Below are positions 221-31,134 of a DNA stretch of 64,000 nt, piece by piece. How positions within the stretch are numbered: the first letter of the stretch is position 1; every line of letters begins with the position of its first letter. A program made the translations under genes and the position numbers. The notes under the pieces are model-generated. The model made no database searches. It had not been told where the DNA came from and was given only the letters and a program-made list of their open reading frames with translations. Source of the stretch: Polytrichum commune (taxonomy: Eukaryota; Streptophyta; Polytrichopsida; Polytrichales; Polytrichaceae); contig OX485805.1 in assembly GCA_950295325.1 (NCBI GenBank), positions 44,602,758 through 44,666,757 of the forward strand, in the 5' to 3' direction.

Positions 221-233
221 GAAGACTACTGCC

Positions 234-1142: not shown

Positions 1143-1296
1143 GTAAGTTGTCCATACTCGATTTACAAACGCTCGTTCGTAAAATTAATCCCCTTCGCAA
1201 TGTAATGCTTCAAACTCGTTGCACGCCAACTTTACAAGTTTTGATGTTTACGAACGCACGTTCGTATTTTCTGACCTCATTGCTCTTGTGTCACAG

Positions 1297-9058: not shown

Positions 9059-9409
9059 AAATAGGTTTAGTGCTATAACATATTAGTGATAACTTTCTAT
9101 TTTATTTCTAGTTCTCCAAGACATTGATGGTATTTCCATTATATTTGTATTTATTCCCATTGAAGTAATTCAATTTCCATTCATTATCCGTATCTTCCCT
9201 TCCATTGAGGTCGATTTCTCATTTCATACGCAAATATTTTCATGTATGCTTGACATTTTCTTTCAATTCGATGCCTTTATGTCTTGTAATTGTTTCCAAA
9301 CCTATACATATGTGAGTTTTAGTTCGTAATTACTGGTCCATATTTGGAAAGTGCGTCCTTAAATAGTCTCAAAATCAACTAAAAGTCTCTAATTAATGAA
9401 TATAGTGTT

Positions 9410-9689
9410 ATGGGCAAAGTTTAAGAGTATGTGTCAGGTAGACCAGCGATTTGCGAAGTATGCAATATATGTGAAGAAAAATGTTTACCAAGATGGAGAT
9501 GTTTTGAATGTAAATGTTGCAGGATTCATTAACAATTCTATTGGAAGAGAGTGTATAAGGAATGTACTTTGGGAATACGTGCCATTGCATACCCCATGGA
9601 ACCCGAAAACTTGGGGGTACATCATAACTATAGCAACACGTGACATTGAAGTGGGAGAGGAACTATTCTCATATAACCCTCTAAATTGA
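9410..9689 (+). pseudogene. SET-domain fragment (C-terminal half)
   Basis: The translation contains VNVAGFINNSIG, like the RFINHSC strand of SET lysine methyltransferases, followed by IITIATRDIEVGEELFSYN, like the conserved IxAxRDIxxGEELxYxY segment, and a stop. The N-terminal half of the domain is missing: the frame begins exactly where element A ends (9409). No post-SET cysteines follow. It may be a gene fragment captured by the CACTA element or a remnant of an interrupted gene. NNS in place of NHS removes a residue usually needed for cofactor binding, so activity is doubtful. Confidence 0.6.
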
Positions 9690-9739
9690 TGGGACGTTTA
9701 TATTGTAGCAAGGAACTCGATAACAATACAAGAAATTGT

Positions 9740-9950
9740 TGTAATACTTCAGTGCTCAATGATTGCTTAGTCTGTTAGTTCACTTTAATCAGTACATGTA
9801 GTCATTGTTTTTGCAAAGATGACTAAATCGTAGTCACTGTTTTTACAGAGATGACTAAATCGTAGTCACTATTTTTGCAAAGATGACTAAATCATAGTCA
9901 CTGTTTTTACAGAGATGACTAAATCGTGATTACCAAATAAATGACTTTTG
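9740..9950. repeat. AGTCA/TGACT repeat tract
   Basis: Four near-direct repeats of about 38 bp (TAGTCACTGTTTTTACAGAG followed by ATGACTAAATCG) are present. The same AGTCA/TGACTA motif is scattered at 11570-11765, 12740-12870, 14515-14690 and 31670-31715, all in the CACTA element. This fits transposase-binding subterminal or internal repeats. Confidence 0.6.
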
Positions 9951-10177
9951 TACATATAGATGAATATTTAGAATAAGGAAATATTGTTTACATGCTCGTA
10001 AGCAATGCAAATAACGTCACCTACCAACACATAATTCGGGGGTTGTTATTCTTTACTGTGGAGTGTGGAATTCTGTACTTAAGTGGGCAAGATTGTCAAA
10101 ACCTACACGAATGCAATGAAGCGCAGGAGGAAATCCCGACAATGCGAACCGAATCCAAGGAATTTGAGGTTACATGA

Positions 10178-12729
10178 ATGATCACAGAGTGCTTTGGCAG
10201 ATACGACAACATCCCTCCCGCTACTAATGATGGAATCGATGAGGATGAAAATGACATTGCTTTGGAAGACGACGACCTCCATGACGTAGACCTTACAAAA
10301 GTCATTGAGGAATCAAATATTCCACTATATGAAGGTTCTCAGACAAAGCTTTTAGTTGCAGTGCTTCTCCTATTCAATTGTTTCACGGTATTTGGAGTTT
10401 CAAACACTTGTGCAGATGAAATCTTGAATGTGATCACCGAACTTCTCCCCAAGGGTAATAAACTGCCAAAATCCCACTAGGAAGGGAAGAAATTCCTACG
10501 CCATTTGGGGCTCTCCTACAACTCCATCCATGCCCGTAGAAACGGGTGTTGTTTATTCGAGGAGAGTTAGCAGATTCATTGACCTGTCCAAAATGTGGGG
10601 AGCTGTGATACACATCAAACAATAATACAAGGGCAGTGAAGATACTAAGGCATTTTTCACTTATACCCCGATTGTTGCGAATGTTTCGATGTGCCTGGAT
10701 TGCAGAGTTAACCAAGAGGCAGACATCAAGAAAATAATTCACAGGTAATATGGAGAGTGTTCCAAACTCAAAAGCTTGGAAACACATCAATGTTGTCTAT
10801 TCAGAATTTGCGTCTGAGGAGAGGAACATACAATTAGGGATGGCCCTAGATGGTGTGAACCATTACTCAAACCAATCATTAAGCCACTCAACCTAGCAAG
10901 TATTATTGTTGAACTACAACCTTCCTCTCTGGTTAATCACGAAACATTTTTTTCTAATGTTGGTTCTTCTAATCCCTGGAAAGAAAGCATCACATCGGAA
11001 AATATAGATGTGTACTTGGCCCCACTTATTGAAGAGTTGCAGCAACTGTGGCATGGTGTGAATGTTGTCGATGTCTCCGATGACAGTGAAAACAAGAATT
11101 TTGTCCTCAAAGCGATTTTGATGTGGTGCATTCACGATTATCCTGCGTATGGTCTTGTCTCTGGGCAAGTGACAAAGGGTTACAGAGGATGTACTGAATG
11201 TGGCCCTAATGTCAGTACTCGTCGATCAGCCGCACTCAGTATGGGCAAAAATGTATATTTGGGACATCGGAGATACTTGAAAAGGAATCACCCGTATCAA
11301 TGACTCCGAAGAGAATTTGATGGCACAAAAGAAAATAGAGCGCCTCCTTGCCCTCTAACTGGTCGAGATATTATGCGCCATGCTAATGTAAGGGAAAAAT
11401 GGCTAAATGCCTCTAACGAGAACAAACATGGGGGGGGGTCAATGATCCAGTGCACCAAACTGAAGTGAAGAGGTTGTCAGCCCTGTACATTCTTCCGTAT
11501 CGGCAGGTTAATAGTCTATCATAGCCATTCTAGACCTTAGACCTTTTTACCTTGTTCTTGTACTATGTGACTACAGAATACTATATGTAATCAATACATT
11601 CCTATCTGCACTGAGTGCATGACTATATGTAATCAACAAATCAGTGCTGCTAGTCACATGTATGTCCTAATATTGACTGAGTAAAATACAATATGACTAG
11701 TTTTAGTCATCAACACCGAATGTACGACTAAATGTAATGACTAGATGTACGACTACATATAGAATGCCGTGGTGAGGGGATTTGTAATTGTTCTAACATG
11801 GATTGTGCACTACTGGCAGTGTCTTATGATCCGCCATGTGTTGGATCCAATGCATTGCAAAAAAAACCTGTGCGAAAACATCATAAAGACAATATGGGGA
11901 TTGAAGGATACATTGAAAGTAAGACTAGACCTTAAGGAGGCGAAGATACGTCCCGAGCTCCACCCAAAACATGGTGGAAATGATACCATCATACTACCAG
12001 TTGTTCCTTATGTGCTGTCAAAGGTGGAGAAACCCAAAGACTCCCAACAATTACGTGGGGCAGTTGTCCAAGAGGATAACCGTTGACGGAGACCTTCGTG
12101 GGCTTAAGTCACATGACTACCACATAATGATGTAGTAGATTCTTCCTTTATGTGTGCGAACACTTCTACCAAAGGATTTTCGGGCAGCAATAATTCGTAT
12201 AAGTAGGGTCTTTGTGCATTTATGTGCAAAGTCTGTGGATCCATCAACAATGAAAGACTTGATGGAAGAAATAGCAGTAACTATGTGTATGTTGGAGAAG
12301 GTCTTCCCACCGTCGTTTTTTGATGTCATGTTACATTTGCCGATTCACTTAGTGCAGCAGTTAGACATTTGTGGTCCGGTCCACACACATTGGATGTACC
12401 TTGTGGAACGGTATCTAAAAACGTTGAAGGGCTACGTACGGCAACGAGCACAATTGGAGGGATTGATGGCAAGAGGGTACATCATGGAGGAGGTGCTGGG
12501 ATTCTGCACCAAGTACATGCAAAATTGTACTATGATAGCACGCCGTGTATGGGATGACAAAGAGGAGCCTAGTATAAATGACGAAGTGTTACAAGGGAAA
12601 GGGAGACGACGCATATTGTCAACGGAACTGCAAGAGTGGATTCATGAGTTCGTGCTTAACAACGCTGAAATACTTCAAGATTACAGAGAGTATGAACCTA
12701 AGCAATATAAATGTTACATAGTAATATAA
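10178..12729 (+). pseudogene. TNP2-type CACTA transposase with DUF4218
   Basis: The N-terminal part has LYEGSQTKLLVAVLLL and LPKSHYEG-like sequence typical of TNP2. The middle (11010-11300) reads WHGVNVVDV and YPAYGLVSGQVTKGYRGC, the Transposase_21 core. At 11840-11890 VLDPMHCKKNLCENI corresponds to the family signature DxMHxxKNVxDNI. From 12117 the DUF4218 module follows (PPSFFDVMLHLPIHL, MYLVERYLKTLKGYV). At least four frameshifts or stops (around 10480, 11300, 11465 and 12090) break it, and AGTCA tracts interrupt it. Transposition would need a functional copy elsewhere. Confidence 0.8.
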
Positions 12730-14514: not shown

Positions 14515-14690
14515 GCCCAAAACTAGAGTCACCTAACTACTAATTCTAGTCATATGGCTACCCACGAGAAAAATAATCAGGAGAACACGTTCCCTACAGA
14601 GTTCCCATTGAGGTCCCGTGAAAATATGACTAAAATCTTAGTCATGTGATGACTTTAATCATTTATAGTCACCAAAGTGATTACTAATGA
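14515..14690. repeat. CACTA subterminal AGTCA repeats, left of element B
   Basis: Repeated AGTCA/TGACT motifs (GAGTCACC, CTAGTCATATGG, TAGTCATGTGATGACT, TAGTCACC) occur here and resume at 31670 past element B. The last four bases, ATGA (14687-14690), are the left copy of element B's target duplication. Confidence 0.7.
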
Positions 14691-14853
14691 AACACTATAT
14701 TCGTTAAATTGAGACTTTTTGGGCATTTTGAGACATTCACAGAAATAAGAACAAGGATAAATGGAACACATATTGGAGAAAGTTGTAAGATGCGAACACT
14801 TTGAAGCGGGTGTTTAGAACAAGAACCCCGTTAATAACTCAATATTTGGGATT

Positions 14854-15064
14854 GTTTAGGGTGGGCAATCCAAACCTTAGGCCAAGTTGAAGGGGAAATC
14901 TTAAAACATTCATATTATCGCACAAAAACTTGTATGAATATGGTTTAGGTAGGGCAATCCAAACCATAGATCATATTGAAGGGGAAATATGTGAACCAAT
15001 ATAATATAACATACAAAATATTCCAAACTCATATTTGTGATGGTTTAGGTAGGGCAATCCAAAC
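14854..15064. repeat. Left subterminal repeats of element B (degenerate palindromes)
   Basis: Three copies of GTTTAGGTAGGGCAATCCAAAC or close variants lie at 14854-14875, 14943-14964 and 15043-15064, each followed by a conserved GAAGGGGAAATC block. They match the internal element B palindrome in its arms (GTTT.GGT....CCAAAC) and differ mostly in the core, so they look like degenerate versions of it. A further copy is in the small element at 24323-24344. Subterminal repeats often bind the transposase. Confidence 0.6.
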
Positions 15065-15231
15065 CTTAGACCATATGGAAGGGGAAATCATGTGACACTT
15101 ATATTATTGCAAAAAAAAAACATACAAAGTGTGGCATGTAAAATGCATAGCATGCTAACACAACACATCCATTGGATAGTGCGACCCAAAATGTTCTTGC
15201 CTATGGCCCAAAACCCTACGCCTACTATGGC

Positions 15232-16033
15232 CTATCTAGCCTCGGAGACTACCTCTTTTTCTTTTGCTTCATTTTCTTTTGCTTTTTTTTCTTTTTTTTC
15301 TTTTTCTTTTGCTACGGCTTCTTTTGCTCGCATTGCTTCAACATTCCTGAAAATCTCCGCCCCGCGACTATAGCCATTCTTGGGGTGACCGCCATCAATA
15401 ACACATTTTGGATTCCGTCGGCCGCCCGAATTATACGACGAAGAATTCGAATACGATGAAGTGGACTGTCTTGCATTTCTGGTCATGGAGTAGAAACGCT
15501 CCAACTCGACGGACGCACTAGCCCGCATAGGTCTACGGGTGGGAGCAACCTGCAACGCGTGAATGCAAGAACACACGTGTTAGTTTAGGGAGGAAGACCC
15601 AAACGTGTCACACGTTCATTTTTTAAGTGCCGGATGATTGTAATGCGCGGTTAACCATGTTTTGGGGGGGGGGGTTCACCTTGTCACCGGGGGCGTTCCC
15701 GTCGGAGTCGGCGAGGAGGGGCAATGCGTCCCGCAAAGGAATAGGAAGGGTGCCACTCTTCGTAGGCCGAGCGTCCATCCGCAGCCGCCGTTGAGGTGTA
15801 CTACTGCCGCCGGGCCGAGAGGGGGACGTCCGGACGCATTTGCGATTTATGCCCTTGAGCGGCGACGGGGACGGAGATCGCCGGAAGATTTGCTTGGGTG
15901 GGGGGCTATCGACGACGCCGGCGTCAAGAGGCTCCTTGGAGTAGTCGATGGTGGATGCGGCATCGTAGACGGTCTCGTAGAAGAAGCTCCCCAAGTTTTA
16001 TTCGCTGACGATCTCAATCGAGGGCTCCAAACG
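15232..16033 (-). CDS. C-terminal exon pair of element B (acidic/Lys-rich tail protein)
   Basis: The first exon (16033-15680) follows TTTTGCCATCAG and ends AAG|GTGAAC. It encodes YDAASTIDYSKE and GVVDSPPPK, conserved with elements A and C. The second exon (15549-15232) follows GCGTTGCAG and encodes a Ser/Tyr-rich segment, GYSRGAEIFRNVEAM, and a long Lys/Glu/Ala helix, probably a charged coiled coil, before its stop. Both exons are phase 0. In the continuous phase-0 frame the first exon has a TAA near its start (about 15998), so either the real start is internal (MGSFF at 15994) or this copy is damaged. It lies about 120 bp downstream of the HAD stop on the same strand. Function is unknown. 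Confidence 0.5.
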
Positions 16034-16152
16034 CTGATGGCAAAATTAAAACAAACAAAACCCAAGGGGAGGGGGGCAGGGGGGGAGCATGAGAAAATCG
16101 ATATACAATTGAGGCATACTATATCACACACAATGGCACACCATGTAGTATC

Positions 16153-16968
16153 TCAAATGAGTTTATTATATTTCGCGTGAGCGTACAACTCTCTGTACAT
16201 ATAGTCCTTCGGATCCATGTATCTTTCGCCTATCGGATTACAACTAAGGAACCGGGGCACGGGTAGTCCGCTCCCCACGAGCGTTTGAATGTACTTAAGT
16301 AGGTCTAACAAAAAGCGGTCTCGGACCTTCTCGACCGTCCACGTGGGGCAAACGATGAAGTTGGAGGTCGGGTTCAAAATGTTTTTGGAAGCGATGTCGT
16401 CCACCATCAACGTGTTGTCACGGGTGGGGCGAACGTCGTAGGGACAGCCGACCATGGTCGGACGCTGGTCCCATACGACTGGCTTCAAGACCTTAAGAAA
16501 TTGGTTTACGGCGGGGTTGTTGGGCTTCTTCACAACCCTGCCCTTGGGGGTGTACAATGTTTTACAAGAATCATGTCCTAGGACCAAGCACGGGGGTTGG
16601 AGTCCCTTGAAGATGAACTCCACGACGGCCTGGATATTCTCGGACTTCATGGAGCTCCAAATGATCACCCACCATTTGGATAGGGCGACCTGTAGGAAGC
16701 GCCGAAGCCACGGGCGGAGGTACACTAGCTTGTTTTTGATGTACGCGGGGGGGGGTCCATCGTAGTTGGCGTCCTCGGGCTTGCAGAAAGGCACCGTTGG
16801 GACCCTCGGACAATGCACGCACTGGACAAGGACCCCGTTGAGGTCTAGCACCAGGAACCGGGTCTTGGGAGGCGAAGGTGGCGAGGGCAAAATCGGGGGG
16901 ACCACCGCGCTGTCCTCCACACTCCTCGGAGAGGATCGGTGGGGAGCCGCGACGCTATGCTCCGAACC
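16153..16968 (-). CDS. Exon 4: FCP1-like HAD phosphatase domain
   Basis: The frame runs 272 codons from the acceptor CGCCGCAG to TGA at 16153. It contains FLVLDLNGVL (HAD motif I), KLVYLRPWLRRFLQ and VIIWSSM (the FCP1/SCP motif II region) and LMVDDIASKNILNP (motif III, DD). It ends YAHAKYNKLI. In FCP1/SCP phosphatases motif I is DxDxT; here the second Asp is Asn and Thr is Val. The same DxNG form occurs in a plant clade of CTD-phosphatase-like HAD proteins. The first Asp (nucleophile) is kept, so binding or weak activity is possible. The conserved stop in all three element copies shows this C-terminus was maintained. Confidence 0.7.
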   Translation of the reverse strand, partial: GSEHSVAAPHRSSPRSVEDSAVVPPILPSPPSPPKTRFLVLDLNGVLVQCVHCPRVPTVPFCKPEDANYDGPPPAYIKNKLVYLRPWLRRFLQVALSKWWVIIWSSMKSENIQAVVEFIFKGLQPPCLVLGHDSCKTLYTPKGRVVKKPNNPAVNQFLKVLKPVVWDQRPTMVGCPYDVRPTRDNTLMVDDIASKNILNPTSNFIVCPTWTVEKVRDRFLLDLLKYIQTLVGSGLPVPRFLSCNPIGERYMDPKDYMYRELYAHAKYNKLI

Positions 16969-19900
16969 CTGCGGCGACGAGCGAGAGAAGGCGGCGAGGA
17001 CTATGTTATGCTATGTCCATCTCAAGCAGAACGGAAATTTTGTGCAAACACAAGAAGAATTGGACCATTGGTGGCAACAAAAACATACAAGGGAACAACA
17101 TACATTGGGACACGGATGCAAACATATGGGCGCCAAAAATAATAATTTTATTTTTACAAATCTCTATGTACAATTTGATTCGGGGGGGGGGGGGGGGGGG
17201 CGCGGTGAACGAGGGCATTCACACTATCCTAATTCTACATCTACAAAATTGGTTGCGCGCCGCCAAGGTCGAGCGTAGTCGAATGCAGGTGAGACGAAGG
17301 GGATCGCGGGGGGGCACGTTGGGGGGAGGGGGAGCAAGTGTAGACCAGGGGGGGCAGGGGGTGTGCATTTCCTCCTAGCATGGGGGACACGACCACGCCA
17401 ACAAGACAATGACCCAGGAAGTTTGGGTCGGTCGACCCAAACTGGGAGGGCTCAGTGTATTACCTCGCCCTGGTCATGTCTCGACGATGTGGAAGCCTCC
17501 ACCGTCCCCGCTGCCCCGCCTCTCTCGCCACCGCCTTCTCCGACGACGTCAGGAACCTTCTCCTGCAAACGATCGGCATCAGGCCCTTGTCCTAAACCAA
17601 TCTCCGCATGTGCATCATGCATGGGTTCATCGATTTGGTTAGGAGTAGAGGTATCACCAGGCCCTTGCAGGCCTTCAACATCTAGCATGGCCGTGTCTAG
17701 TTGACACCCATGTTGGTCAAGGGAGGACTGCGCTGCAACGGGGTTTGGGTCGCCCGACCCAAACTGTCCTGCATCTGGAGAGGGCCCTTCGGACACTACA
17801 GTGGATGGTGGGTTTGGGTCGGTCGACCCAAACATCCTGGGGTCGTCCGATTGGTGGGGTGGCGCCATGACTATGGGGGGCCGAAGTGGTGGAGGGCCCA
17901 AAGGGGAGGAGGCTCCAGAGACGCGCCAGATGTTGGAGTCATCCACTTGCTGGACCGGCGCGTACGGAACTTGGTGGGGCTGCATCAAGTGCTGGAAGCT
18001 GAAAGACGATTGCGGCACAGGCTGCTGAGGGATGCTCTGCGGATGGAAGCCGGGGGGCAAGTGCGGGAAGGAGCTGGAAGGAGCCACCACCAAACCTTGC
18101 GCCCACATTCCTTGTATCACTTGTGATATCAAGTCGGCGTGAGACGGAGGTTGGGCCATCGCCCTTTGACGCTCCTGCTCCAACAGGAGAGCCCTCAGCT
18201 CTGCGACCTCGTTCCGCATTGAGGGTTCTTCTGCGGCAGCCTTCTGCAGGCGGACTCGCTGCTCCTTGTCCCTCCTCATCTTCTCGTTCGCCTCCTCCAC
18301 AGTCAGGACCTCGGGCTTCACCCTAACCATGCCAGCGAACGCTGTCGGGGACGGGGGATCTGATCTTAGCCGTTTGGCGAGCTCAATGTCATCGTCGTCC
18401 TCACTACTTATGGCAATGGTCTCCTCCACGGAGTAGTCGCCATACAGCTTCTTCCCCTTTAACTTCCTCCTCTCCTTGAACGTCGCGGTGGCGTCCCTGG
18501 AGTACATGTCCCGTGCATCGTCCACAGTCAGGACGGGCACGAGCTTACTCTGCGGGGTTGCCGCCCGCATCGCCTTCTTCCGTTGAGGGGCTTCGGATTC
18601 TTGCGTGAAGCCCGTTGCCCCTTCCTCGACGTCGCCTTCTTCTCCGCCTCCTCGTGTTCCTCTTCTTCCTCCTCCTCCTCCTCAACCTCGCCACCTTCTG
18701 TGCGGGACGGATTGCCCGGATGCAACCCGACCAGAGGTTCGGGAACTTGGGTCGTGGCCCTCATGGCCATTTCCTCCGGGTTGATGCGCCTCACCCTATC
18801 AAGAGGGTTTTCGCCACCCTGAACAACCTCGTCGACGTAGCTACCCGGGATCCAATCGAGGATGTCCATCTTCTTCGCCAGCGATTTCTGCACCCTGTAA
18901 AATGGCAGATCGCCATCCTCTATGTAGGAGTATATATTCAGCCCCGACATCTACACAATCCAAGTTATAGGGAAATTAGAATTTGTCGAGGCAATCACAT
19001 AAACAAGACTAAATACAATGTGTAGTTTGGGTCGGTCGACCCAAACCTGCAAAGAGCCTAGTTTGGGTCGGTCGACCCAAACCTGCTTACGAGCTATAGA
19101 AAGTCACTTACCATAGCAGCATAGACAGGTTTTGAGCCTCCGAAGACGTTGAAGATGCAGTCCCCTCTCCTCGTCAGCGTCCTCATCATTCTCATGTAAA
19201 ATTCCATCCGCAGCTCATCTGCAGGATAGTTCGCGTATTTAGCCTCGTCGTAGAGGCACTTGTTCGCACCCAACCCTTCTGGAACTTGGAAGAGTTTGTC
19301 CATCCGGGATATAGGGTGGTTTGGCACCTTCAGCAACTTCGCTTTGTACACGAAGTACAAACACAAGACGTTGACGAACTTGGTCTTCTTGTCCTTCAAC
19401 GTCGTGTAAGCCCCCTCCGCCGGTGCGGCGATGTAGTGAGACTTGGACACTGCATACTCCGGCTGCAGTTTCCGGACAAGCTCGTACACCTGCTCCGCCC
19501 TTCTATCCTCGACTATCCAAAGCCAGATATCTACCTCCCTGAACTTAGGGCTTGCATAATCGACGAACTTAGTTAAGAAGGGGTCGTAGAAAAGGGTGCT
19601 CATCGTGCCCTCAAATGAGCTTCCAGGAATATTTCTACAATCAATCATCCCAAAAGGAAAGCGGTCCTTTGCTTTCGTCCTTATCGCCATTCTGGCGTCT
19701 TGACCTGGCCAGCCCTGAATTTTCAAAGGCTCGAAGGTGACAAGGTTGAAGTAGGCGTCCCCTTCAAACTGGACAATCTTCTTCTCCTTGATGAAGTTCG
19801 AGAACGCACGCGCTGTGTGATCCGGAAGCGCCCGGTTCTTCCCACCTTTCACCATCTTGGCCCGCAAGAAGTCGTCCCCCGCTTCCCTTATTAGAGCCGC

Positions 19901-22035
19901 CATGGAGGCACTGGTGAACTTATATTCATCTTTGAATGCTCTCCAGTTAGCCCCATGAACCTCGCCGTCTACGACAATATTCCTCTCTGGCACCAATTTA
20001 TGCAGCTCCTGCACGATAGTCGTCTTCTTTTTCCTGTTATCCGTCCATTCCTTCATGGTGTAGCATGAAGGAACGAAGGATTTGGGCTTTTGGAAGACAA
20101 TCTTCGGGTGCACCCAACACCTCTTCGCCGTGGGTGCCACGTGCAGGATGTGAGATGCCGCCTTCTCCACCTCCGTCTCTGACAGCCCTTGAAGAGTTCT
20201 AAAGAACTCTCTCACGAGAGGCTTCATCTGCTTGAAGCGCGAGGTTTGGCTGAAGAAAATGCCAGTGTCGGGGTCGATCAAATCCCCCGTCTCGTGCTTT
20301 TCAAACACGGTTTTCCACTTCCTCCAAACTGAGTCCGATGCTGTAATCAAGTAAATTACCCTTGAGGTCGCTGTATTTCTTCTGCTTGTGGCTCGAATTA
20401 TCAATGGAGGAGAATTTGTTGATCATTTGGTATTTGAAATTCTGCACGTGAACAAAACAGAACATTTGAATGCGTGTTAGTTAAGTACATGTGATTTCCA
20501 AACCATATCATGACCAACATCTACAACAAGAGTTTGGGTCGGTCGACCCAAACTGAAAAAAAACACAAGACTGCAACAGTTGTTTGGGTCGATCGACCCA
20601 AACTAAAAAAACACAAGACTGCAACAGTTGTTTGGGTCGATCGACCCAAACTAAAAAAAACACAAGACTGCACCAGGAGTTTGGGTCGGTCGACCCAAAC
20701 AATACTCACCTCCCACTTGGGATTCTTGTCCTTCGCATTCTCCCTCTCCTTGGGAGGCCTACCATAGAACTCCCACACCTCCCGCGAGGCCATGATATTC
20801 CTTATCCAGGAAGCTTGGTAGGCCCTCTTCTTGTTTCCCATATTGAAGTACCGGGAGATGTCGCTGAGCTTGGTCTCGTCGTCAGACCACACCACCAGTG
20901 CCTTCCAAACCTTCAGCTTTTCCTTCTGATTGTTGGGATCGTCCCACTCATTCATGAGTTGGATTTTCTTGGATGCCTCCACGCTGTGTTGGCCGTCCAT
21001 CAGCCAAAAATCGCCCTTCTGAATTGTTGGCCACATTTCAGGTGTAGGCATTTTCTTGAGACCCTGTGGCATCACTACAATCGTTTGCCTGTCGTCTTTA
21101 AACTGCTCGCAAACGATCTGCGCGATTATCCAGTCAACGTAGGCGTCCTCCTTTGCCCGGACACACTTCTCCGGTGGCGCTAGATGGCACTGGCTGATGT
21201 TCACGTCGAACTTGAAATCCCTGCCCATGAAAAAACAGTGGGAGCATTTCGTCGTGAAATTGTTCACGATTTTCTGCAGCTCCCCTGCATCCACCTCTTC
21301 GCCGGGCTTCGGCATGCGCAACTCCGGTGAGACTGGCTCGTCAGTCATCACAGATGACTCTCTCGCCCTCTTGGATGGAGTTGTTTGACGGCTCCCAGAA
21401 GGTGTAGGGGTCTCACTATTCGTAGGTGTTTGGGAGGGAGTGGTCCTACGCGAGTCAGCCGGTACTGGAAGCGGCATCCTCACCGATTGAGGTCTTGACG
21501 ACCCTGCTCCTTCCTCTGTGGGAGCTTTCCGCCTCACAGGTTGCTGTGATTTGGTTTTGCTTTGCAGGCCCCTGTTCAGCACGGTTATTGCATGTTTTAG
21601 TTTTGTGAACCGGCTTGAGACCTTGGTATTCGATGTACTCCCATCGATAAATATTGTCTCCGGCTTGATAACTTCCGGTTCGACACAGGACTCTCTTGCA
21701 TAGAGTGCGTCGAAAGGCTCGGAGAACTGGTGCATGAACATATGCGCGTTCTGCACAGCCGAGTTCTCGAGGATGACGTCGGTATAGTCTCCAAGAGACT
21801 GTACCGATGCGACCTCCCATCCCGTAAGAGTCGCCCAGGTGTGTTTCTCCACGGTTCCCACCTTGACAACAAAAATCATTTTGTATGTTGAGGCTTTGAC
21901 TACTTGAATAGACCAAGCGAGGACAAGCCCGTCCTTAGGGGAATAGGAGTCATCCTGCGGGGTTTCGTGCTCCTGCCACAACATGTCCGGCGCAGGCATG
22001 AACCACCTTTCGCCGGGTCTTTTCTTTGGAGCCAT
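16153..22035 (-). CDS. ParB-like / methyltransferase-like / coiled-coil / HAD fusion gene of element B
   Basis: Four exons, 22035-20710, 20441-19112, 18950-17464 and 16968-16153, are bounded by GT-AG introns whose junctions all fall between codons (GAG|AAT, ATG|ATG, GAG|GGT). They read as one gene of about 1,650 codons. Domain order is N-terminal Ser/Pro-rich region, ParB/DGQH-like domain, permuted N6/N4-methyltransferase-like domain crossing the second intron, acidic linker with coiled coil, and FCP1-like HAD domain. Exon 2 carries one extra base (shift near 20350) and exon 3 lacks one base (shift between about 18640 and 18570). As given, the gene is therefore interrupted twice by single-base indels. 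All three introns contain TTTGGGTCG-type palindromes. Separate genes are possible but the phase-0 continuity argues for one. Confidence 0.6.
17464..18950 (-). CDS. Exon 3: motif II strand, acidic linker and coiled coil
   Basis: The first 40 residues (MSGLNIYSYIEDGDLPFYRV...) complete the methyltransferase-like fold. A Glu-rich run and a Lys/Arg cluster follow. After the frame change (between about 18640 and 18570) come IAISSEDDDDIELAKRLR (resembles an acidic SUMO-interaction-like patch), a heptad-rich helix (VEEANEKMRRDKEQRVRLQKA, through LRALLLEQERQRAM) and a long Pro/Gln-rich tail. Two palindromes (17743-17764, 17812-17833) are read in frame as FGSGDPNP and FGSTDPNP, so they are tolerated in the protein. 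The donor is GAG|GTAATA. Confidence 0.45.
19112..20441 (-). CDS. Exon 2: permuted N6/N4-methyltransferase-like domain
   Basis: The order of elements fits a beta-class (circularly permuted) DNA methyltransferase. A motif IV-like strand and loop FPFGMIDCRNIPG lies near 19640; a helix plus strand VDIWLWIVED follows; then a strand FVNVLCLYF, an ELRMEFYMRMM helix, and GDCIFNVFGGSKPVYAAM (19160-19112), which resembles motif I (VLDPFAGSGTTLLAA). The next exon supplies GLNIYSYIED, matching the motif II strand with its acidic end. The catalytic DPPY/NPPY/SPPW of motif IV is replaced by CRNIPG (FRGIPG in element A), so this may be a catalytically altered or dead domain. A one-base insertion shifts the frame near 20350. 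Confidence 0.5.
20710..22035 (-). CDS. Exon 1: ParB/DGQH-like domain
   Basis: The exon encodes 442 residues from an ATG that directly follows a TTCTCTTACAG acceptor-like sequence, so an untranslated first exon may lie upstream. Residues 1-135 are a globular region rich in W, V and F. Residues 140-245 are a Ser/Thr/Pro-rich linker with basic patches. Residues 270-440 resemble a ParB N-terminal (ParB/sulfiredoxin) domain: IVVMPQGLKKM, then GDFWLMDGQHSVEASKKI at 341-358 (compare DGxHRxxA), LKVWKALVVWSDDE, and an RYFNMGNKK segment where ParB proteins have the N of ENLQR. The Arg of the family motif is replaced by SV. The exon ends KNPKWE|GTGAGT. A CTP-switch or nuclease role cannot be judged from this. 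Confidence 0.5.
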
Positions 22036-22061
22036 CTGTAAGAGAATAATGCGCAAAGTTA

Positions 22062-22498
22062 GTTTCGGTCGTTCGACCCAAACATCTACGACATGAATAG
22101 GTTTAGGTGGATTGTGTATTTATATATTTCAGCATCATTTGTAATGATAATAAGAATGTTGTGATTATTGGGTGGATTTGCATTTTATATTGTTTGTGAC
22201 ATGCAGGATTCCTTGATACTTTTCCTTCATGCATTCCTTGATTATTATTTTGGGTTGATGTGAATTTTATATTGATGCAAAAATCATGGATTTCTTTATG
22301 AGTTTATAATTAGAAGACTTAGTTTGGGTCGTTCGACCCAAACATGATGATTTGTGTTATATTTGGGTCGTTCGGCCCAAACATGATGCTTTGTTTTGTG
22401 TTTGGGTCGAGCGACCCAAACAAGGGGCTGTGTTTGGGGCTGTGTTTGGGTCGGTCGACCCAAACAAGAGGCTGTGTTTGGGTCGTCTCCCCAAACAG
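22062..22498. promoter_or_regulatory. Palindrome cluster upstream of the ParB exon
   Basis: Six copies, some imperfect, lie just 5' of the minus-strand gene: 22062 (TTTCGGTCGTTCGACCCAAA), 22322, 22361 (GTTCGGCCC core), 22400 (GAGCGACCC core), 22444 (perfect) and 22477 (GTCTCCCC core). Their arms are conserved and their cores vary. The position fits a regulatory cluster of an autoregulated gene, but there is no direct evidence for promoter function. Confidence 0.55.
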
Positions 22499-22740
22499 TA
22501 TTATTTTAATGTATTTTTTAAACTTGGCATCTAGCATATGCAATGCTTATGCATTGTGTAATATGCTACAAAACCGTGAATATACAAACACATATTGGTT
22601 AAAATAAAACACAATACCTTTCAAAGATGTTGTGCAGACAATTTGGAGTAGAGCAGGTTGTTCTTCCAATAATTCTCAATATCAAACAAACTGTGAGAAA
22701 GTTCAATGAGAAACTTTCAAACAAGTATCAACTCTCTCAA

Positions 22741-23050
22741 ATAGCTCTTGGATCTCTCAACCAACTCCTGAATCTCACACAGAACTACTGAATCTCTCAA
22801 AAGACTTCGAAATGTCTAAACCAACTCCTGAATCTCACACACAACTACTAAACCTCTCAAAAGCCTTCGAAATGTCCAAACCAACTCCTGAATCTCACAC
22901 ACAACTACTAAACCTCTCAAAAGACTTCGAAATGTCTAAACCCACTCCTGAATCCCTCACAAAACTACTGAATCTCTCAAACGACTTCGAAAACTCTCAA
23001 ACAACTCTTGATACTCTTAAAGAACTCTTGAATTTCACAAGCACTCCTAA
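22741..23050. repeat. 60-bp tandem repeat
   Basis: About five units with an exact 60-bp period (CAACTCCTGAATCTCACACA, then ACTACTGAATCTCTCAAAAG and CTTCGAAATGTC). Divergence rises at both edges. The open frame across it (MSKPTPESHTQLLNLSK repeated) reflects a period divisible by three. It lies in the intergenic region of element B. Confidence 0.75.
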
Positions 23051-24164
23051 AACTTCCAGTACAAACACCTGGACCTCCCAAACCGAAGCTTTATCTACTA
23101 CCGAATGTTCTACTAACTTCCTTCAGCACTTTCCAATACTCTTCAACACTCTTTTGCTAACTTCCTTCACTCTCACGCTCTAAAACCTTCCTCCGTATGT
23201 TTCTGTTTCTTTCAAAACTCTTCCTAACTTCTAAGATTGCACAAGGGCTATTCTATTGAAGAGCAAAAGAAAGGAGGGAAAAGAAGATGCAAAAGAAAGC
23301 AATGAACGCGGGAGAACGAAGGGTTAACCTACACCAAGCCTGATTCGCCGCGGCGCTTTGCGAAAGCGGCGCTTCCAAGCGAGGCGCGGAGAGAGAGAGA
23401 GAGAGAAAGAAATGAGAAATGCGACGGTTGGGGTTTTGTTTACCTCGGGCATTGGCCCCCAACCGCATGAATAGGGTGCCCACAGGATTAGGGCACCCAC
23501 GGAAACAGGGTTACAGGGAACCCTAAAACCTAAATCATAACGCTTGACTCTAAACCCTTAGCGGGCCTACCTCTTTAAGAGTACATAGGCTATTTGCCTC
23601 ATAGCATAGGTTGCATTCTACAATATCAACTTTTTGTAAGTTGAAAACCTTTTGAGTTTGTAAGTTCCTCGCCAATTGCCTCAAAACTAAATTTTAGTAG
23701 GCTAAAATCCTTCATATCTTTTAATGTTGTAGGTTTTAAAATCAAAATTTGAGTACTAAGTGGGATCCTTGGCAGGAATTGAACCAGGCTAAGCCTTTCA
23801 CCACGTTTGAAGGCCAAGGATTAACCAAGTCTTTTTTAAAGAGTTGATTATAAGTTTTGAAAGGTTGCTAAAATTCAAATGAGTTTAAGGGTGAAAGTTC
23901 TCACCATGTTCTCATTCAACCTCTACTCTTCCTGCAAGATATAGCCTAAAGATATGTACTTAGGCCAACTAATTTCCCAATTTGAAGAAGGATGAATGGC
24001 TAAAATCCTTTCTTTTAAAAAAAATTTAGGCAAAATTTCCTAAATGTTTTTATCACATAGGTTGATATCCTATGTTTTTAAATTGTCCATAGGCTCTTTG
24101 TCCTACACTTTCAAAATTTTATAGGCTAAGTCACTAATTTTGTAGGCTGCATTTGTTTTAATCG

Positions 24165-24411
24165 GTATATTCGTTAATTTGGGATTTTTTCGGCATTTTG
24201 AGAAAGTTACAAATATAAGAACATGGATAAAATCGCACGTACATTGGAGAATGTTGTAAGATGCAAATACTTTGAAGCGGGTGTTCATATCAAGAACGCA
24301 ATTAAGATCTCATATGAAGATGGTTTAGGTAGGACGACCCAAACATTACACTATGTTGTTGTGGTCCATATATTAATTTGAGAGAAGAGAAAATCTCAAA
24401 TTAGCGAATTT
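24165..24411. mobile_element. Small non-autonomous derivative of the B-type element
   Basis: It begins TATATTCGTTAATTTGGGA and continues with about 170 bp similar to the left end of element B (14700-14870, including CTTTGAAGCGGGTGTT). It ends with CATATATTAATTTGAGAGAAGAGAAAATCTC, like the right end of B (31615-31655). At about 250 bp, with both ends and no genes, it is a MITE-like deletion derivative nested inside a full-length relative. The outermost terminal bases are eroded. Confidence 0.6.
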
Positions 24412-25148
24412 TAGGGTTTAGGTTCTTTTGGACCTTGCTCTAAACCCTTATTAGTTTTTTCAAAAGAACTATGGAGTACCCTAAGGTGCTACATAAAATG
24501 TGTTATTCTACAAAACTAACCATTTATATAGCCAGCGCATTCTTACAACAAAACTTTATGCTAAACTAATACTTATCCCCTACTTACATGACACCATACC
24601 CTAAATTTTCCAAAATCATTGAAGGCATTGGTTTCTCTTTTGTTTGAGCATGTTAGAAAATTTAAACCATATAATTGCGTTATATTTAACAATGTAATCA
24701 TTCACATTTAGTCCTTACCAATGATGCCAACAATTCACACGATATTGAATGAAAAAAAAAAGATTACCCACACCCCCCAACATGTGGAACAATTTAGAAT
24801 AATTGAGTGTGGAGCCTAATAAATGAATACCTTCCCCAACTGCATTTTGCAAGGGTTTTGAAATGCACGATCCTTATTTGAAAATGCGAACATGCTCAAG
24901 TTTTAAGTACATCCCTTAGATCGTGACTTTCACGAATCACATAGTCGCCAATAAATCATGGTTCATGATTTATTTAATATATAGATTGTGATATAAGAGT
25001 AAATGGGATAAGCACAACATCAAATGAAGCCATTCAAGCAATCATGTTGTTATTCCCTGTTCCTTCCATGTATATTAGATGATGGCGCAAGATAAAATAG
25101 ATGTTGTTTGTATATGGGGGCATCAGTGAACCACAACTACATTTGGTG

Positions 25149-25920
25149 TTTAGGGTTTAGGGTTTAGGAGATAGGAGATAGGGTTATAACATATTAATCT
25201 ATCCAATGTCAATGTATAACATTGTCTTACTCGTGAGAAGAGTCTTATAGGAAGGTTATAGTGAAGACGATGTTGATTATGTTAATTTGTTATTCGAGAC
25301 GTTTAAACGCGATATATTGATTGGTCGTGTGTTTATTCAAATAACATGAAATATTGTGGATGTTAATAGGGGCTAGGGGTCCAACTTTGGATGTTTCGCT
25401 CACTTTAGGGAATCACATATTAGTCGCTAATAAACCATCGTTCATGATGTATTTAATATATGGAATGTCATGTAAAAGTAAATCGGAGAAGCACAACATC
25501 ATGTTGTTATTCATTGTTCTCTCCACGTGTATTAGATAATGGAGGAAGATATAACAGATATTGTTTGCATAATATGAAGAAGAGTCTAATCGGAAGGTCA
25601 TAGTAAATACAATCTTGATCATGTTAATATGTTATATGGGACGTTTAAACATGATATCCTAATTGGTTTTGTATTTAGTCAATGCGTATTTCATGTTGTG
25701 GATGTTATAAGGGTTTAGGGTCCAATCTTGGATGTTTTGCTCTCACACATTAGTAAACTTGAAGTGAACTTGAGGATGGATTCAAGTAACATTAAAAGAT
25801 TGAACTAGAAAGGGACATTGGTAGTTAGTATCCCCTTAACAACGTCCACATACGTTCGTCATTGCCACTCTTGCATGCGAGATAATAGAGCAAGGTTCTA
25901 GGGTTTAGGGTTTAGGGGGG
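25149..25920. repeat. Short TTTAGGG telomere-like tracts
   Basis: Three plant-type telomere units occur at 25149-25168 and nearly three at 25899-25920. TTAGGGTTT also recurs in every unit of the palindrome array at 26657-27891. The tracts are too short to be true telomere remnants. Confidence 0.5.
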
Positions 25921-26656
25921 ACAAATAAATAATTCTATTCATCATGACAATGGCCTCAAGCCTTGGAAACTCTCTCATAATTGCAGCCTCCAAATGGCCC
26001 AAACCCCACCTAAATAGGTTTACACTTGAAAGCATTGAATGGAGTTGTGTTTGGGTCTACATATTGGTTAAAATATACCTTGATGATACTTGAAAAAATT
26101 AATGTGGCCGCCACCCTTCCTCCCAATGGCGTATGTCATATCCACACAAAACAAAACAAATAGATTAAATAACATAGACTAAGTCATATGACGGCTGGGG
26201 TATCAGAGGGGCATTGATAGATGCGCATTTTTCTACTATAAACAGAAAACGGGGAATTATGTCAGGAGGTTTGAAATAACCTCTGCAAGAGAAGAAGGCG
26301 GGGAAGGCATCCAATGACTAAGTCTGGGAAGCGGAGGTGGATAGTATAAAGGGGCGCACCCCCCAAAAGTCGGTCCTTTTTTTCTCTTCTCCCGCTGTCG
26401 AATTCGTAGAGAGAACTCTTAGTAGGAGCTGTACTTCAAGGTTCGTGCATGCTGCCATTCATGAGCACTTATCCATAGCATGCAAGTTCATGAGCACCTA
26501 TCCACACCATGCAAGCCCACCGTGAACTTTGCAATGAGCTCAAATTCAACACACCACGCAATATCCGCCCCATTATACGCCGGATTTTGTGGTGTACTTG
26601 GGCGAACCTTCACCTTTACACTAGTGTTGGCGGGTCTTGAGTCTGACCCTATGAGG

Positions 26657-27891
26657 TTTGGGTCGACCGACCCAAACCTGTCCACTAGTGTGTTAGGGTT
26701 TATGTCTGACCCTTGTAAGGTTTGGGTCGGTCGACCCAAACCCCTACCCCAGTGTCTTAGGGTTTTTTTCCTGACCCTTATCAGGTTTGGGTCGACCGAC
26801 CCAAACCACTACATGGTGTGGGTGGATGTACTCTTGTGAGGTTTGGGTCGGTCGACCCAAACCCCTACCCCCAGTGTGTTAGGGTTTTTTCCTGACCCTT
26901 ATCAGGTTTGGGTCGACCGACCCAAACCCCTACGTGGTGTGGGTGGATGTACCCTTGTGAGGTTTGGGTCGGTCGACCCAAACCCCTATTTCAGTGTGTT
27001 AGGGTTTTTTTCTGACCCTTGTCAGGTTTGGGTCGACCGACCCAAACCACTACCTGGTGTGGGTGGATGCACCCTTGTGAGGTTTGGGTCGGTCGACCCA
27101 AACCCCTACCCCCAGTGTGTTAGGGTTTTTTCCTGACCCTTATCAGGTTTGGGTCGACCGACCCAAACCCCTACGTGGTGTGGGTGGATGTACCCTTGTG
27201 AGGTTTGGGTCGGTCGACCCAAACCCCTATTTCAGTGTGTTAGGGTTTTTTTCTGACCCTTGTCAGGTTTGGGTCGACCGACCCAAACCACTACCTGGTG
27301 TGGGTGGATGCACCCTTGTGAGGTTTGGGTCGGTCGACCCAAACCCCTACCCCCAGTGTGTTAGGGTTTTTTCCTGACCCTTATCAGGTTTGGGTCGACC
27401 GACCCAAACCCCTACGTGGTGTGGGTGGATGTACCCTTGTGAGGTTTGGGTCGGTCGACCCAAACCCCTATTTCAGTGTGTTAGGGTTTTTTTCTGACCC
27501 TTGTCAGGTTTGGGTCGACCGACCCAAACCACTACCTGGTGTGGGTGGATGCACCCTTGTGAGGTTTGGGTCGGTCGACCCAAACCCCTACCCGAGTGTG
27601 TTAGGGTTTTTTCCTGACCCTTATCAAGTTTGGGTCGACCGACCCAAACCCCTACCTGGTGTGGGTGGATGTACCCTTGTGAGGTTTGGGTCGGTCGACC
27701 CAAACCCCTACCCCAGTGTGTTAGGGTTTTTTTTTCTGACCCTTGTCAGGTTTGGGTCGACCGACCCAAACCCCTACCTAGTGTGGGTGGATGCACCCTT
27801 GTGAGGTTTGGGTCGGTCGACCCAAACCCCTACCCCAGTGTGTTAGGGGTTCAGTCCGACCTTTATGAGGTTTGGGCCGGTCGACCCAAAC
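26657..27891. repeat. Palindrome array with 241-bp higher-order repeat
   Basis: Twenty-one copies of the 22-bp B-type quasi-palindrome lie at alternating distances of about 57 and 63 bp. Successive copies alternate in orientation: core TCGACCGA, then its complement TCGGTCGA. A four-palindrome block repeats with an exact 241-bp period (26843, 27084, 27325), with almost no change over about 720 bp, so it was amplified recently. Spacers carry TTAGGGTTTTTTCCTGACCCTT and GTGTGGGTGGATG. The array ends about 180 bp before the transposase-like coding start, so it may act as enhancer, silencer or protein-loading site. The long open frames across it are by-products of the repeat. Confidence 0.9.
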
Positions 27892-28067
27892 CCGCACCAA
27901 AATAATTTCTGGAACTTGTTTTGGACTTGCACACAGTGTTGGGAGTTCACATTGTAGTTGTGTTGGAAATGTCTTCATCCTCGGTGTCCCCATTGATCAT
28001 GTTGTCTTGCATTTTTCGATATTTGATTCTTTTGGACCCTTACATTCTTTCCATGTGTGTAGGCGCA

Positions 28068-31000
28068 ATGGAGGGAGTTGGTGGAAGAGGGGATTCCTTC
28101 TCTGACGACATGGGCAACACCCAATCTACGTCTGGGGATGAGCTAGACATTGTTGGGGAGGATAGTTTTGATGACAGTGCAGATGAAGGTGACTTGGGGA
28201 GTCCTTCGCCATCTGCCCCTTCTTGCCCCACTGTGGAATGTGCTGGGCTTTCACGAGCTTCATGGGTGAATTTGGATGTAGTACTTGTTAATGACAGTGG
28301 AGTTGCTATGGCGGAGGGTATTTGTCGTAACACACATCCAGAAGATTGCATTGATGAAAACTCCCTTGGCACCGAGGACGTTGGAGTTGTTATATTGGAA
28401 TCACTCGTACATTCTGAAGTGAATCCAACTCATAGGTTCTCGTTGCGAAGGTGGCCGTTGAGGAATGTGACAATTGATGGGGTTAATTTGCATGAGCACG
28501 AGCGACGACACATCCAAATCCAAGAAGAGCTCCAAGCAAACATTCGGCCACGCAAAGGCCTACGGAAGTACGATACATTGGCACGTCCTACTCCGTCTGC
28601 AAATGAGTGTAAACGTCAAAGGTTGCTTTGTGAGGAGTCCATTAGAGAAGTTGCCACAAAGGATTGTTGTGTACATCGTTGTTGCCAATTGTTCCCAAGG
28701 GATAAATTGAAAGCCATCCGCGAGGAAATGTGGCTTGGAGATTTCCGTCTAAGATCTACCAAAAAGCTTGATGTCCATAGGGCGATACATGTGAACGGAG
28801 CGGGTCGCAAGGTCATCACCCTTGAGAGCATAGACGTGTGTTGTACCGCATGGTACATCATTCACGGTGTGTCGAAAGCGGAATTTTATAGACAAGCCGC
28901 GTATGCCAAGGAAGGCCGCCGGTCCCGTCACCATGGGAATACGGACTTAAAGAAACCAAGGGAAGCAACGAGACAAGCAACCGCCACTCTGGCAACCATC
29001 ATTGTCCCCCTTGCCGATGCAATGCTGCACAAAACACGCACACTCGCAACCGGTGAAAATGTTGTGGAGAAGGTTCTTCCTACAGGCACGAAATGGAAAG
29101 ACATATTGTTGGACGTAAACGCAGTTGGCGAGAAGGTTGGGTTGGACCCTATTTCGTTGTCGAAACTGAGTGCAATAAAAAAATCTCACTTTAGCGAATA
29201 CATCACAAAAAGACGAGGCGACAAATTTGCCCGTTGTTCCAAATGCGAGAAGTTGAAACGCCTTCGAGATGCACACACGATGGGGACAGAGTCCTATGCC
29301 GCACATCAAATGAACTATTTCAAGCATGTGAACATGCAAGAGGCACACCGTAATGATTACTATACAAATAGAGCTTTGTCCATCTCTAGGCCTTTGGAGG
29401 TCCTTACAATCATCCATGACAAAATGGACCATGCCAAAACAGCCTCACCATGTTTTGCAAATCGAATAAAAGCCACGGACGGCCTTTTTAAGCTTCCTGT
29501 ATCGGTTACAGGTGATTTCGATAACAATTGCATTGCATTACCTAAACACAAATTTGTGCTTTAGGTTTGTACTTGGGGCCATAGATGTACACCATGTGAA
29601 TTTTTTGGTGTTATAGTTGAATATTAAACCATTGGGTTGGCTTTACAGGGATGATTGCACATGGACATGGTGATGTCAAGTATGCTCATTATGCTCTTGA
29701 TTTGTATCCAGCGGATTCAAACCACACGATAGGGTCATTTGCAAAGCTTTTACGTGATTTGGAGAAACCGCCGTCCTATTCATCAAGATTGTTATTTGAA
29801 AACTCGGGATCAACACCTCTATATGAAGCGGTCTTGGATGGAAGAGATGTATGCGTGCACTCCTTGCCGGAGCCACCAAGTGAAGATGTGATTGCCAAGA
29901 ATTGCCCCCAACTCTGCGTGTCCAATTGGACAATTGTGCGAAGGACAATAAAAGTAGATATGTTTTTGCATATTGGTCGTTGTTGGTTGCGAAAGGCATT
30001 TTCAAGGAGGTTTTTGTGTCCTTTCTATTAGTAGGCCACACGCACGACGATATCGATGCATCTTTTAGGCGGTGGAGCATGAAGTTGCGCGAGGAGGATT
30101 TTCCGACAATCCCATTGTTGATGAAGTCGTATATGGATTTGGAGAACATTCCCGTCATCCCCCATATGATCGAGGAGGTTCCAGACTTCAAGGCATTTAT
30201 AGAACCGTATATTCGAAGCGGAGCTCACCAATTGATCGGACATACGAAGGCACAACAATTTCGGTTCTACGTGCGTGACGATGGTGTCCCCGCCATGCAA
30301 TACAAGTTGTTGTGCACGTCACAAGACTGGAGCCCGCCGGAGGGTCTCCTTGTATGGCGTGTTGATGGGGAGGGAAGGACGATGTTGCCTGACGGAGAGC
30401 CTAAGCCTTGCAAACCAATACTAATGAAGAATTTGGAGGACATTTGTAAAGGCATATCAGGCTTCATACAATATTGGGAGAGTTTGAGGGTAGCGGATGT
30501 TGGTGGATCGTGTTGGCTTCGTTACGGAAGTTGGATACAATATTGGACACGTGTTCGTGGCGCTTTGGCAAACCTTCATCAAGATACACCCCTTACTTTA
30601 AGGCATGGGTTTTGGCCACAAACATGTGTCAATGTACAAGCTTCGGAGGCTAGTCTTTTGGGAAATGGAGAGGTTCGAGAGGAGTTTGATGTGGACGACC
30701 ATTACGTGGGGCCTGCTAGTAGTCGTCCGCCACCATCTTTCCGCATTGCAGTGGATTGTCATGAAAGTTATATGCTCATTTTGCGTCCTGGAGATGAAAC
30801 ATATGCAAAGCCAGTGTGGGTGGCAAGAGCTTTGTCCAAACCAAATTTTGTAACTTCCAGCCCTCATTTTCGACAAATACAAGTAGAGTACTACCGACCG
30901 ACAGCACGGAATGAAGATGTTGTTCGGCATTATACAGGCTGGGATACAAACCCTAACTTTCGGTGGAAGGTGGATTTTGAGCACGGTCCATCTTGGGTAG

Positions 31001-31134
31001 ATACAGATTCCATATTCATAGCATGGAAACCACGGAAAAATCATAGTGGATCAGTGTCCATCCCTCAAAAGTACATAACTTTTGCAAAAGACAACCTTGC
31101 TCGGATCGCAGAAGAAGCAACCCACGTTGAATGA
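28068..31134 (+). CDS. DUF7869-type putative transposase of element B
   Basis: Exon 1 (28068-29511, ATG after TGTGTAGGCGCA) and exon 2 (29649-31134) join in phase as VSVT-G-MIAHGHGDVKYAHYAL across a GT-AG intron. The N-terminus is acidic; a Cys/His-containing block follows (CCVHRCCQLFPRDKLKAIREEMW, VCCTAWYIIHGVSK). The core has MDHAKT, VQLDNCAKDNK and VSFLLVGHTHDDIDASF, acidic positions that could form an RNase H-like/DDE site. The C-terminus (YMLILRPGDETYAKPVWVARAL, WVDTDSIFIAWKP) looks like a BAH/SH3-type chromatin domain. A one-base deletion near 29903 (AATTG against AATTTG in element D) shifts the frame. The transposase role is inferred from position and motifs. Confidence 0.7.

Follow-up and report, generated by a model that had tools for sequence, protein, structure and literature searches.

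A large DNA transposon of Polytrichum commune carries a candidate self-recognition gene among lineage-specific palindromes

Within a 64,000-nucleotide stretch of the Polytrichum commune genome (assembly GCA_950295325.1, contig OX485805.1, positions 44,602,758 to 44,666,757 of the forward strand; hereafter the window, numbered from its first letter) we delimited a DNA transposon of 16,975 bp, element B. Opposite to its presumed transposase gene it carries a second gene, called here the cassette gene, with parts that resemble ParB, a permuted DNA methylase and an FCP1-type phosphatase. The element also bears many copies of a 22-bp palindrome, and related elements bear palindromes of the same geometry and different sequence. 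We propose, at roughly even confidence, that the cassette gene may be the self-recognition gene of a large DNA transposon, with the palindromes as its private tags and with an anti-silencing role analogous to that of the VANC proteins of Arabidopsis VANDAL elements. The main parts of the element are as follows:

14691 to 31665: element B, whole transposon
14687 to 14690: left 4-bp target-site duplication, ATGA, matching the right-hand copy
14691 to 14718, plus strand: left terminal inverted repeat, starting AACACTATATTCG, 28/28 complementary to the right repeat
31638 to 31665, minus strand: right terminal inverted repeat, 28 bp, pairing with the left repeat
31666 to 31669: right 4-bp target-site duplication, ATGA
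20710 to 22035, minus strand: exon 1 (E1), 442 codons; N-terminal domain, low-complexity linker and ParB/DGQH-like domain (ParB at motif level only)
about 19097 to 20441, minus strand: exon 2 (E2); helical part and permuted methylase-like domain (start placed by eye)
17452 to 18950, minus strand: region of exon 3 (E3); acidic low-complexity linker, in two frames in the window copy
16153 to 17010, minus strand: exon 4 (E4); NIF/FCP1-like HAD domain with a D-x-N motif (Pfam PF03031, E=7.6e-13)
27906 to 29564, plus strand: presumed transposase gene, first part
29884 to 31134, plus strand: presumed transposase gene, DUF7869 part (PF25273, E=3.3e-37)

That the cassette gene belongs to a mobile element, as a first-pass annotation of the window had claimed, is borne out by the ends of element B. 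These are exact and flanked by a target-site duplication, and a second copy on the same contig, aligned over the same span with two large blocks 98.99% and 99.59% identical, is flanked by a different 4-bp duplication, ATTA; the cassette gene is therefore mobile as part of one transposon. Two more elements of the family have the 4-bp duplications AAGT and CATA, which makes four of the five elements with both ends read; the fifth, an A-type element (A2), has an imperfect duplication (AAAT vs TAAA). The first-pass annotation had given neither the exact ends of element B, nor the membership of the DUF7869 gene in it, nor the palindromes.

The DUF7869 gene lies on the plus strand, opposite to the cassette gene on the minus strand, and is presumably the transposase of element B; a literature search for DUF7869 found nothing. 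The ends of the elements read AACACTA...TAGTGTT, with the extra AA/TT forming part of the inverted repeat, and they prompted an assignment to the CACTA elements. Since CACTA/EnSpm elements have 3-bp target-site duplications, this identity was set aside because of the 4-bp duplication found in four of five elements and because of the DUF7869 gene. Sola1 elements have 4-bp duplications. Element B shows two Sola1-type traits, the 4-bp duplication and an accessory gene on the opposite strand, but its transposase is recognised as PF25273 DUF7869 only. A 4-bp target-site duplication is also described for Sola2 elements (PMC3627910).

The cassette gene had been annotated as four phase-0 exons. Long minus-strand frames and the phase of intron 1 agree with this: E1 ends at a phase-0 GT donor (read by eye), and the intron, with GT..CAG, occupies the corresponding position in the distant A subfamily. 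The window copy itself, however, is frame-broken compared with its relatives, E2 being out of frame near its start and E3 split over two frames. Our genome-wide searches covered the 408-Mb assembly, 406.1 Mb of which lie in seven large contigs. Among 1291 candidate relatives of E2, 95 were scored (92-100% identity), and the in-frame stop is absent in 71 of them (counted by eye); in the A subfamily, for which 139 of 974 candidates were scored, copy A2 has all four exons in open frames. Since most scored E2 copies and the A2 exons are open, the family is not dead although the window copy is broken.

A search for the DUF7869 family, in which 150 of 1490 candidates were scored, provided further loci, and ten of these were used. 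The order of ParB-like part, methylase-like part, linker and NIF domain recurs in B, B3, A1, A2, G, D and M elements, so that the earlier claim that this association is no accident of one locus stands. Five of the six lineages have the FCP1-like domain fused to the protein. The distant F/H/I/J lineage has a ParB-like frame, and locus H also has a weak E2 match (E 0.002-0.005). The dN/dS ratio was 0.05-0.13 for exon 1 (four unsaturated pairs computed), 0.05-0.14 for exon 2 (six unsaturated pairs computed), and 0.21 and 0.30 for the NIF domain. Such low values indicate that the cassette proteins are under constraint: the E1, E2 and NIF proteins are under purifying selection and are no relics.

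Judged by profile matches, the FCP1/NIF domain is the single statistically secure domain of the cassette protein, and the FCP1-like HAD module of the first-pass annotation was thereby confirmed. Pfam recognises it with E 7.6e-13 in B, 2.9e-16 in A and 4.5e-11 in D. FCP1/SCP phosphatases have a DxDx(T/V) active site. In all five aligned sequences the motif is D-x-N-G, D-x-N replacing D-x-D, and the DD of motif IV is retained.

The other two modules are less firmly identified. The C-terminal domain of E1 has an invariant GQH (DGQH or NGQH in seven sequences) together with a ParB-like pattern, and Pfam found no ParB match in E1 of B, A, G or D or in the scanned F-lineage frames. The three matches of Pfam ParB_N (PF02195) in the assembly lie on contigs C12 and C23 only, none of them on element proteins. 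At 28600-30300, contig C12 (61 kb) encodes a ParB-methylase fusion of phage type that has DPPY and PFAGSG motifs, its best phage match being 37.5% identical; C12 is probably a contaminant phage or prophage contig. Contig C23 (20 kb), with a bacterial-type ParB gene at 8600-10300, is probably bacterial contamination. One PDB match of the E1 profile, a transcription-regulator subunit (E=0.00096, positions 86-213, including the low-complexity linker), is probably spurious. Profile-profile comparison, which had been recommended as a check, gave the expected register at low probability: in hhalign against phage ParB-methylases, DGQH..A falls on the ParB box (1% probability) and motif I is also aligned in register, yet at about 1-2% neither alignment is significant. 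Patterns were matched in IMG/VR and a prokaryote genome collection and no relative of E1 or E2 was confirmed there, a plasmid-type ParB query in IMG/VR was likewise without result, and PADLOC gave nothing credible.

Structure prediction, also recommended, gave poor models of both exons (pLDDT 36 for E1 and 35 for E2), and the matches of the E1 model were ribosomal proteins and others, none meaningful. The C-terminal strand order of the E2 model is that of a permuted methylase, and its nearest neighbours are N6-adenine methylases. Foldseek against PDB gave MTA1 as the best match (E 4.6e-3, probability 0.94), none at 0.001 or better, and unrelated acetyltransferases were also among the matches; VIA-align gave MboIIA (Z 7.1), MTA1 (6.7) and M.BceJIV (6.6), none reaching 8. 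All 50 VIA-align rows listed were methyltransferases, although the tool warns that such Z values can reflect a common arrangement only. We aligned the methylase motifs of B (copy B2), B3, A, two G groups and M, the motif positions themselves being inferred. The presumed motif IV is D-x-R-x-x-P and the presumed motif I is N-x-x-G-x-x-K, both invariant in six of six sequences, and neither the catalytic DPPY/W nor the glycine loop of motif I stands at its presumed position in any of the six. That these residues are conserved and yet differ from the standard methylase ones suggests that the fold is put to a different use. The ParB-like and methyltransferase-like modules of the first-pass annotation are thus kept as plausible, not proven: motifs, strand order and the neighbours of a poor E2 model speak for them, but neither has a significant sequence or profile match.

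The palindromes fall into six types with one 22-bp geometry, a ten-base arm, a two-base centre and a second ten-base arm. The centre varies most in B and A, and in D and M it is almost constant; the A and G types, like the D and M types, differ from each other by one base per arm. Exact genome-wide copies (for B counted in a 20-bp form) amount to 14,631 in total, and their distribution by type, with occurrence at the ten further DUF7869 loci, is as follows:

B type, GTTTGGGTCG-NN-CGACCCAAAC: 9731 copies
A type, TTTACGAACG-NN-CGTTCGTAAA: 2909 copies; at 1 of the ten loci
G type, TTTACGGACG: 1147 copies; at 1 of the ten loci
D type, CCCACGGGTG: 644 copies; at 3 of the ten loci
M type, CCCACGGGCG: 177 copies; at 1 of the ten loci
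F type, GGGTGAGGCA: 23 copies; at 3 of the ten loci

Locus J of the F lineage has no palindrome in its 7.3 kb. In the 64-kb window, scanned with the inner 20 bp as pattern, 36 B-type sites with at most two mismatches were found, all within 17422-27890, and none in 100 shuffles. Reversed patterns had no match genome-wide for any of the six types. On these controls, a chance origin of the palindromes was rejected. When 22 loci or stretches were scored for the six types (at most two mismatches), no foreign type appeared except the one-base neighbours (A/G and D/M), including one exact A-type site within a G element; three dinucleotide shuffles per scored locus gave no match. G groups at 76-88% protein identity share one palindrome, one of the groups having one perfect variant site. 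About 10 kb from B3, a 9.5-kb element with a CATA duplication (C1:639070-648561) contains 31 A-type palindromes. There B-type queries match a NIF fragment only, with no transposase, exon 1 or exon 2, and A-type queries were not run; this element could be a palindrome-bearing derivative that is recognisable in trans.

The palindromes of element B are placed at a few stations around the cassette gene and upstream of the DUF7869 gene:

26642 to 27893: tandem array upstream of the DUF7869 gene, with a repeat unit of about 120 bp that holds roughly two B-type palindromes
22063 to 22464: palindromes upstream of exon 1
20532 to 20700: four palindromes in intron 1; the centre of the first is 21 bp past exon 1
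19026 to 19081: two palindromes in intron 2
17744 to 17832: two palindromes inside exon 3
17422 to 17441: palindrome just past exon 3

Station positions are largely kept while the palindrome sequence differs between lineages. B, B3, A2, G and D have sites upstream of both the transposase gene and exon 1, within intron 1 and soon after exon 2 (the D exon-1 frame used overruns its likely donor, and its intron-1 site is therefore listed inside exon 1). In M, sites lie on both sides of exon 1, before NIF and upstream of the transposase gene. Sites in the exon-3 region or before NIF occur in B, B3, A2, D and M. Between the end of exon 1 and the centre of the next site there are 17-58 bp in B, B3, A2, G and M (the exon end in M is estimated). 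The tandem arrays themselves turn over with the palindrome retained, their period being about 120 bp in B and 78 bp in B3.

Which protein reads the palindromes was approached through pairs of related elements. As a test of prediction, the M-lineage module was sought at the distance expected from D. It was there, with E1 68%, E2 65% and NIF 79% identical to D, and its exact palindromes number 14 of M type and none of D type. Transposase dS is similar in three pairs (B-B3 0.28-0.50, A1-A2 0.25-0.49, D-M 0.35-0.59). The palindrome is unchanged in B-B3 and A1-A2, with an E2 dN of 0.08 in both (copy B2 represents B; for A1-A2, the broken exon 1 of A1 leaves E1 without a value). It is changed in D-M, with a dN of 0.20 for E1 and 0.27 for E2, and there the ParB-methylase part has diverged more than the transposase, whose parts are 87% and 94% identical. 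These comparisons favour the ParB-methylase part as the probable reader of the palindrome, a preference resting on one clean pair, D-M. Synonymous divergence of exons 1-2 in D-M and B-B3 far exceeds that of the transposase and NIF parts in these element pairs, which suggests that the ParB-methylase cassette has been exchanged between elements. In the A-G pair the transposase is 80-88% identical and the cassette 44-55% identical; the idea that A and G are age-matched in transposase and differ in the cassette alone was dropped, being contradicted at the synonymous level.

Further frames and neighbours of element B in the window are the following:

15626 to 15997, minus strand: X16, further conserved frame, found in the A and B families
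15232 to 15579, minus strand: X15, further conserved frame
24166 to 24420: inside element B, short stretch similar to the family's left end followed by its right end, reminiscent of a small non-autonomous derivative that had inserted into its relative
210 to 1151, plus strand: element A, homologue of exon 2 (34% identity, one stop)
7448 to 7999, plus strand: element A, homologue of NIF
12139 to 12729: DUF4218-containing transposase fragment (PF13960, E=1.1e-38), outside element B
59350 to 60206: X15/X16-like frames, 43-45% identity, pieces of further elements of the same family
60466 to 64000: B-type DUF7869 gene in inverse orientation, adjoining a family end at 60468

In the proposed self-recognition system, a dimer of the ParB-methylase-like part would bind the palindromes of its own family, and the ParB-like domain may allow loading and spreading from these sites. 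The methylase-like domain, with its presumed catalytic motifs replaced, could serve as a DNA-binding or altered-chemistry module, and the FCP1-like domain may act on RNA polymerase II or on chromatin at the bound element. As a net effect, the family would stay expressed and mobile despite silencing, with other loci untouched. A bolder version, which we consider possible but doubtful, would be a eukaryotic ParB/parS-like self-marking: a sliding clamp loaded on private palindromes would cover the element, its FCP1-like arm would keep RNA polymerase II working, and the lineages would be mutually blind codes, separated by a change of as few as one base per arm together with a cassette change, that is, orthogonal protein-DNA pairs in one plant genome.

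Several observations weigh against the self-recognition proposal. The clean matched comparison is the D-M pair only. In B-B3 the cassette is older than the transposase and yet the palindrome is unchanged, which indicates that exchange of E1-E2 alone does not dictate a palindrome switch. The A-G pair carries less weight: its transposase itself approaches synonymous saturation (dS 0.97 to saturated), so that the stronger protein divergence of the pair may only reflect age. The product of X15/X16, or the transposase, could be the palindrome binder. The ParB and methylase parts have no credible match in Pfam, NCBIfam, PHROGs or PDB sequences, and in the hhalign comparison, itself not significant, one of 100 column shuffles scored higher for ParB and two of 100 for the methylase. 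No NIF domain was found in the F/H lineage within the 7 kb fetched beyond the ParB-like frame, and in G no site was observed in the exon-3 region. Lastly, the lineages are partly named by palindrome (A3 by palindrome and ends alone), so that the table of loci by type is descriptive and no blind test.

Other explanations of the palindromes divide the same evidence differently. They might control transcription and splicing of the two divergent genes as autoregulatory operator or enhancer sites, with no anti-silencing role for the protein. The stations at both promoters, the site 17-58 bp past exon 1 (in B, B3, A2, G and M) and an FCP1-like domain suited to RNA polymerase II control would all fit, but dozens of sites per element and tandem arrays go beyond what a simple operator needs, and VANC-type systems of similar layout do counter silencing (PMC5735166); we regard autoregulation as unlikely. 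We find it slightly less likely still that the transposase or a further transposition protein uses the palindromes as its sites, with the ParB-methylase gene as an unrelated passenger. Sub-terminal TnpA sites of CACTA elements are a parallel, dense arrays stand directly upstream of the DUF7869 gene, and this gene is present in all six palindrome lineages. However, the palindromes occupy the interior of the element, including introns and exon 3 of the ParB-methylase gene, with no concentration towards the ends, and D and M differ in palindrome despite their similar transposase parts.

It appears rather improbable that the protein marks the palindromes as an active N6/N4 methylase. Such activity would agree with the best structural neighbours of the E2 model (MTA1, MboIIA, M.BceJIV) and with the binding and modification of their own sequence proposed for algal ParB-methylase transposons (PMC12477816), but DxRxxP and NxxGxxK are invariant at the inferred DPPY/W and glycine-loop positions in all six aligned sequences. 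Small mobile hairpin repeats accumulated in these transposons by chance could account for the high copy number and for copies inside coding sequence; one type per element, a fixed 10-2-10 geometry, similar stations and single-base arm changes throughout a whole element make this very improbable.

The first-pass annotation knew of no described plant transposon with this set of domains, a statement that holds in part. In the brown alga Ectocarpus, Sola1-1_Ec32 is a 21.5-kb DNA transposon with a ParB-methylase accessory gene of 1104 aa, and transposons of green and red algae with ParB-methylase genes are cited in the same source (PMC12477816). The fusion core is therefore of a known kind and not wholly new. 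As in element B, the gene of Sola1-1_Ec32 lies opposite to the transposase strand and has ParB-like and N4/N6-methylase-like domains; unlike Sola1-1_Ec32 as described there, a comparison by description only, the present elements have an FCP1-like domain (in five of six lineages) and lineage palindromes. The main text of PMC12477816 contains no palindrom-, FCP1, phosphatase or NIF, and the primary papers on green and red algae, which may contain more, lay outside the search. A literature search for NIF/FCP1-type domains with DNA transposons gave nothing relevant, and the addition of the FCP1-like domain and the palindromes was not found in the literature searched.

The self-recognition proposal was suggested by the resemblance of the layout to the VANC system. 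According to PMC5735166 and PMC10398659, VANC of Arabidopsis VANDAL elements binds motifs in introns and intergenic tandem repeats; the motifs vary from one related VANDAL element to another, and conservation is higher in the transposase than in VANC. Element-specific motifs in noncoding regions and tandem repeats are likewise found here, some sites lying also in exon 3. Unlike VANC, with its 9-base motif, the present family has a 22-bp palindrome, and its anti-silencing role is proposed by analogy; Pfam scans of the element proteins detected no VANC homology (DUF1985/DUF287). Bacterial ParB/parS and phage ParB-methylase fusions are alike in having clustered palindromic sites and in the register of the ParB box and motif I, in an alignment that is not significant, and differ in that ParB_N of Pfam does not match the element proteins. 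Fungal DNA transposons that encode TET/JBP dioxygenases also combine a DNA transposon with an epigenetic accessory gene, but with a different enzyme and, in the abstract of that report, no sequence-specific tag (PMC12730594).

Sequence-specific anti-silencing by transposons is known experimentally for VANDALs. The present family, with an unrelated type of protein and thousands of perfect lineage palindromes, would make self/other discrimination by selfish elements directly testable. The near-neighbour pairs A/G and D/M amount to a natural experiment on specificity and might yield orthogonal DNA-binding tools, and the ParB-methylase proteins of algal transposons would gain a candidate kind of target.

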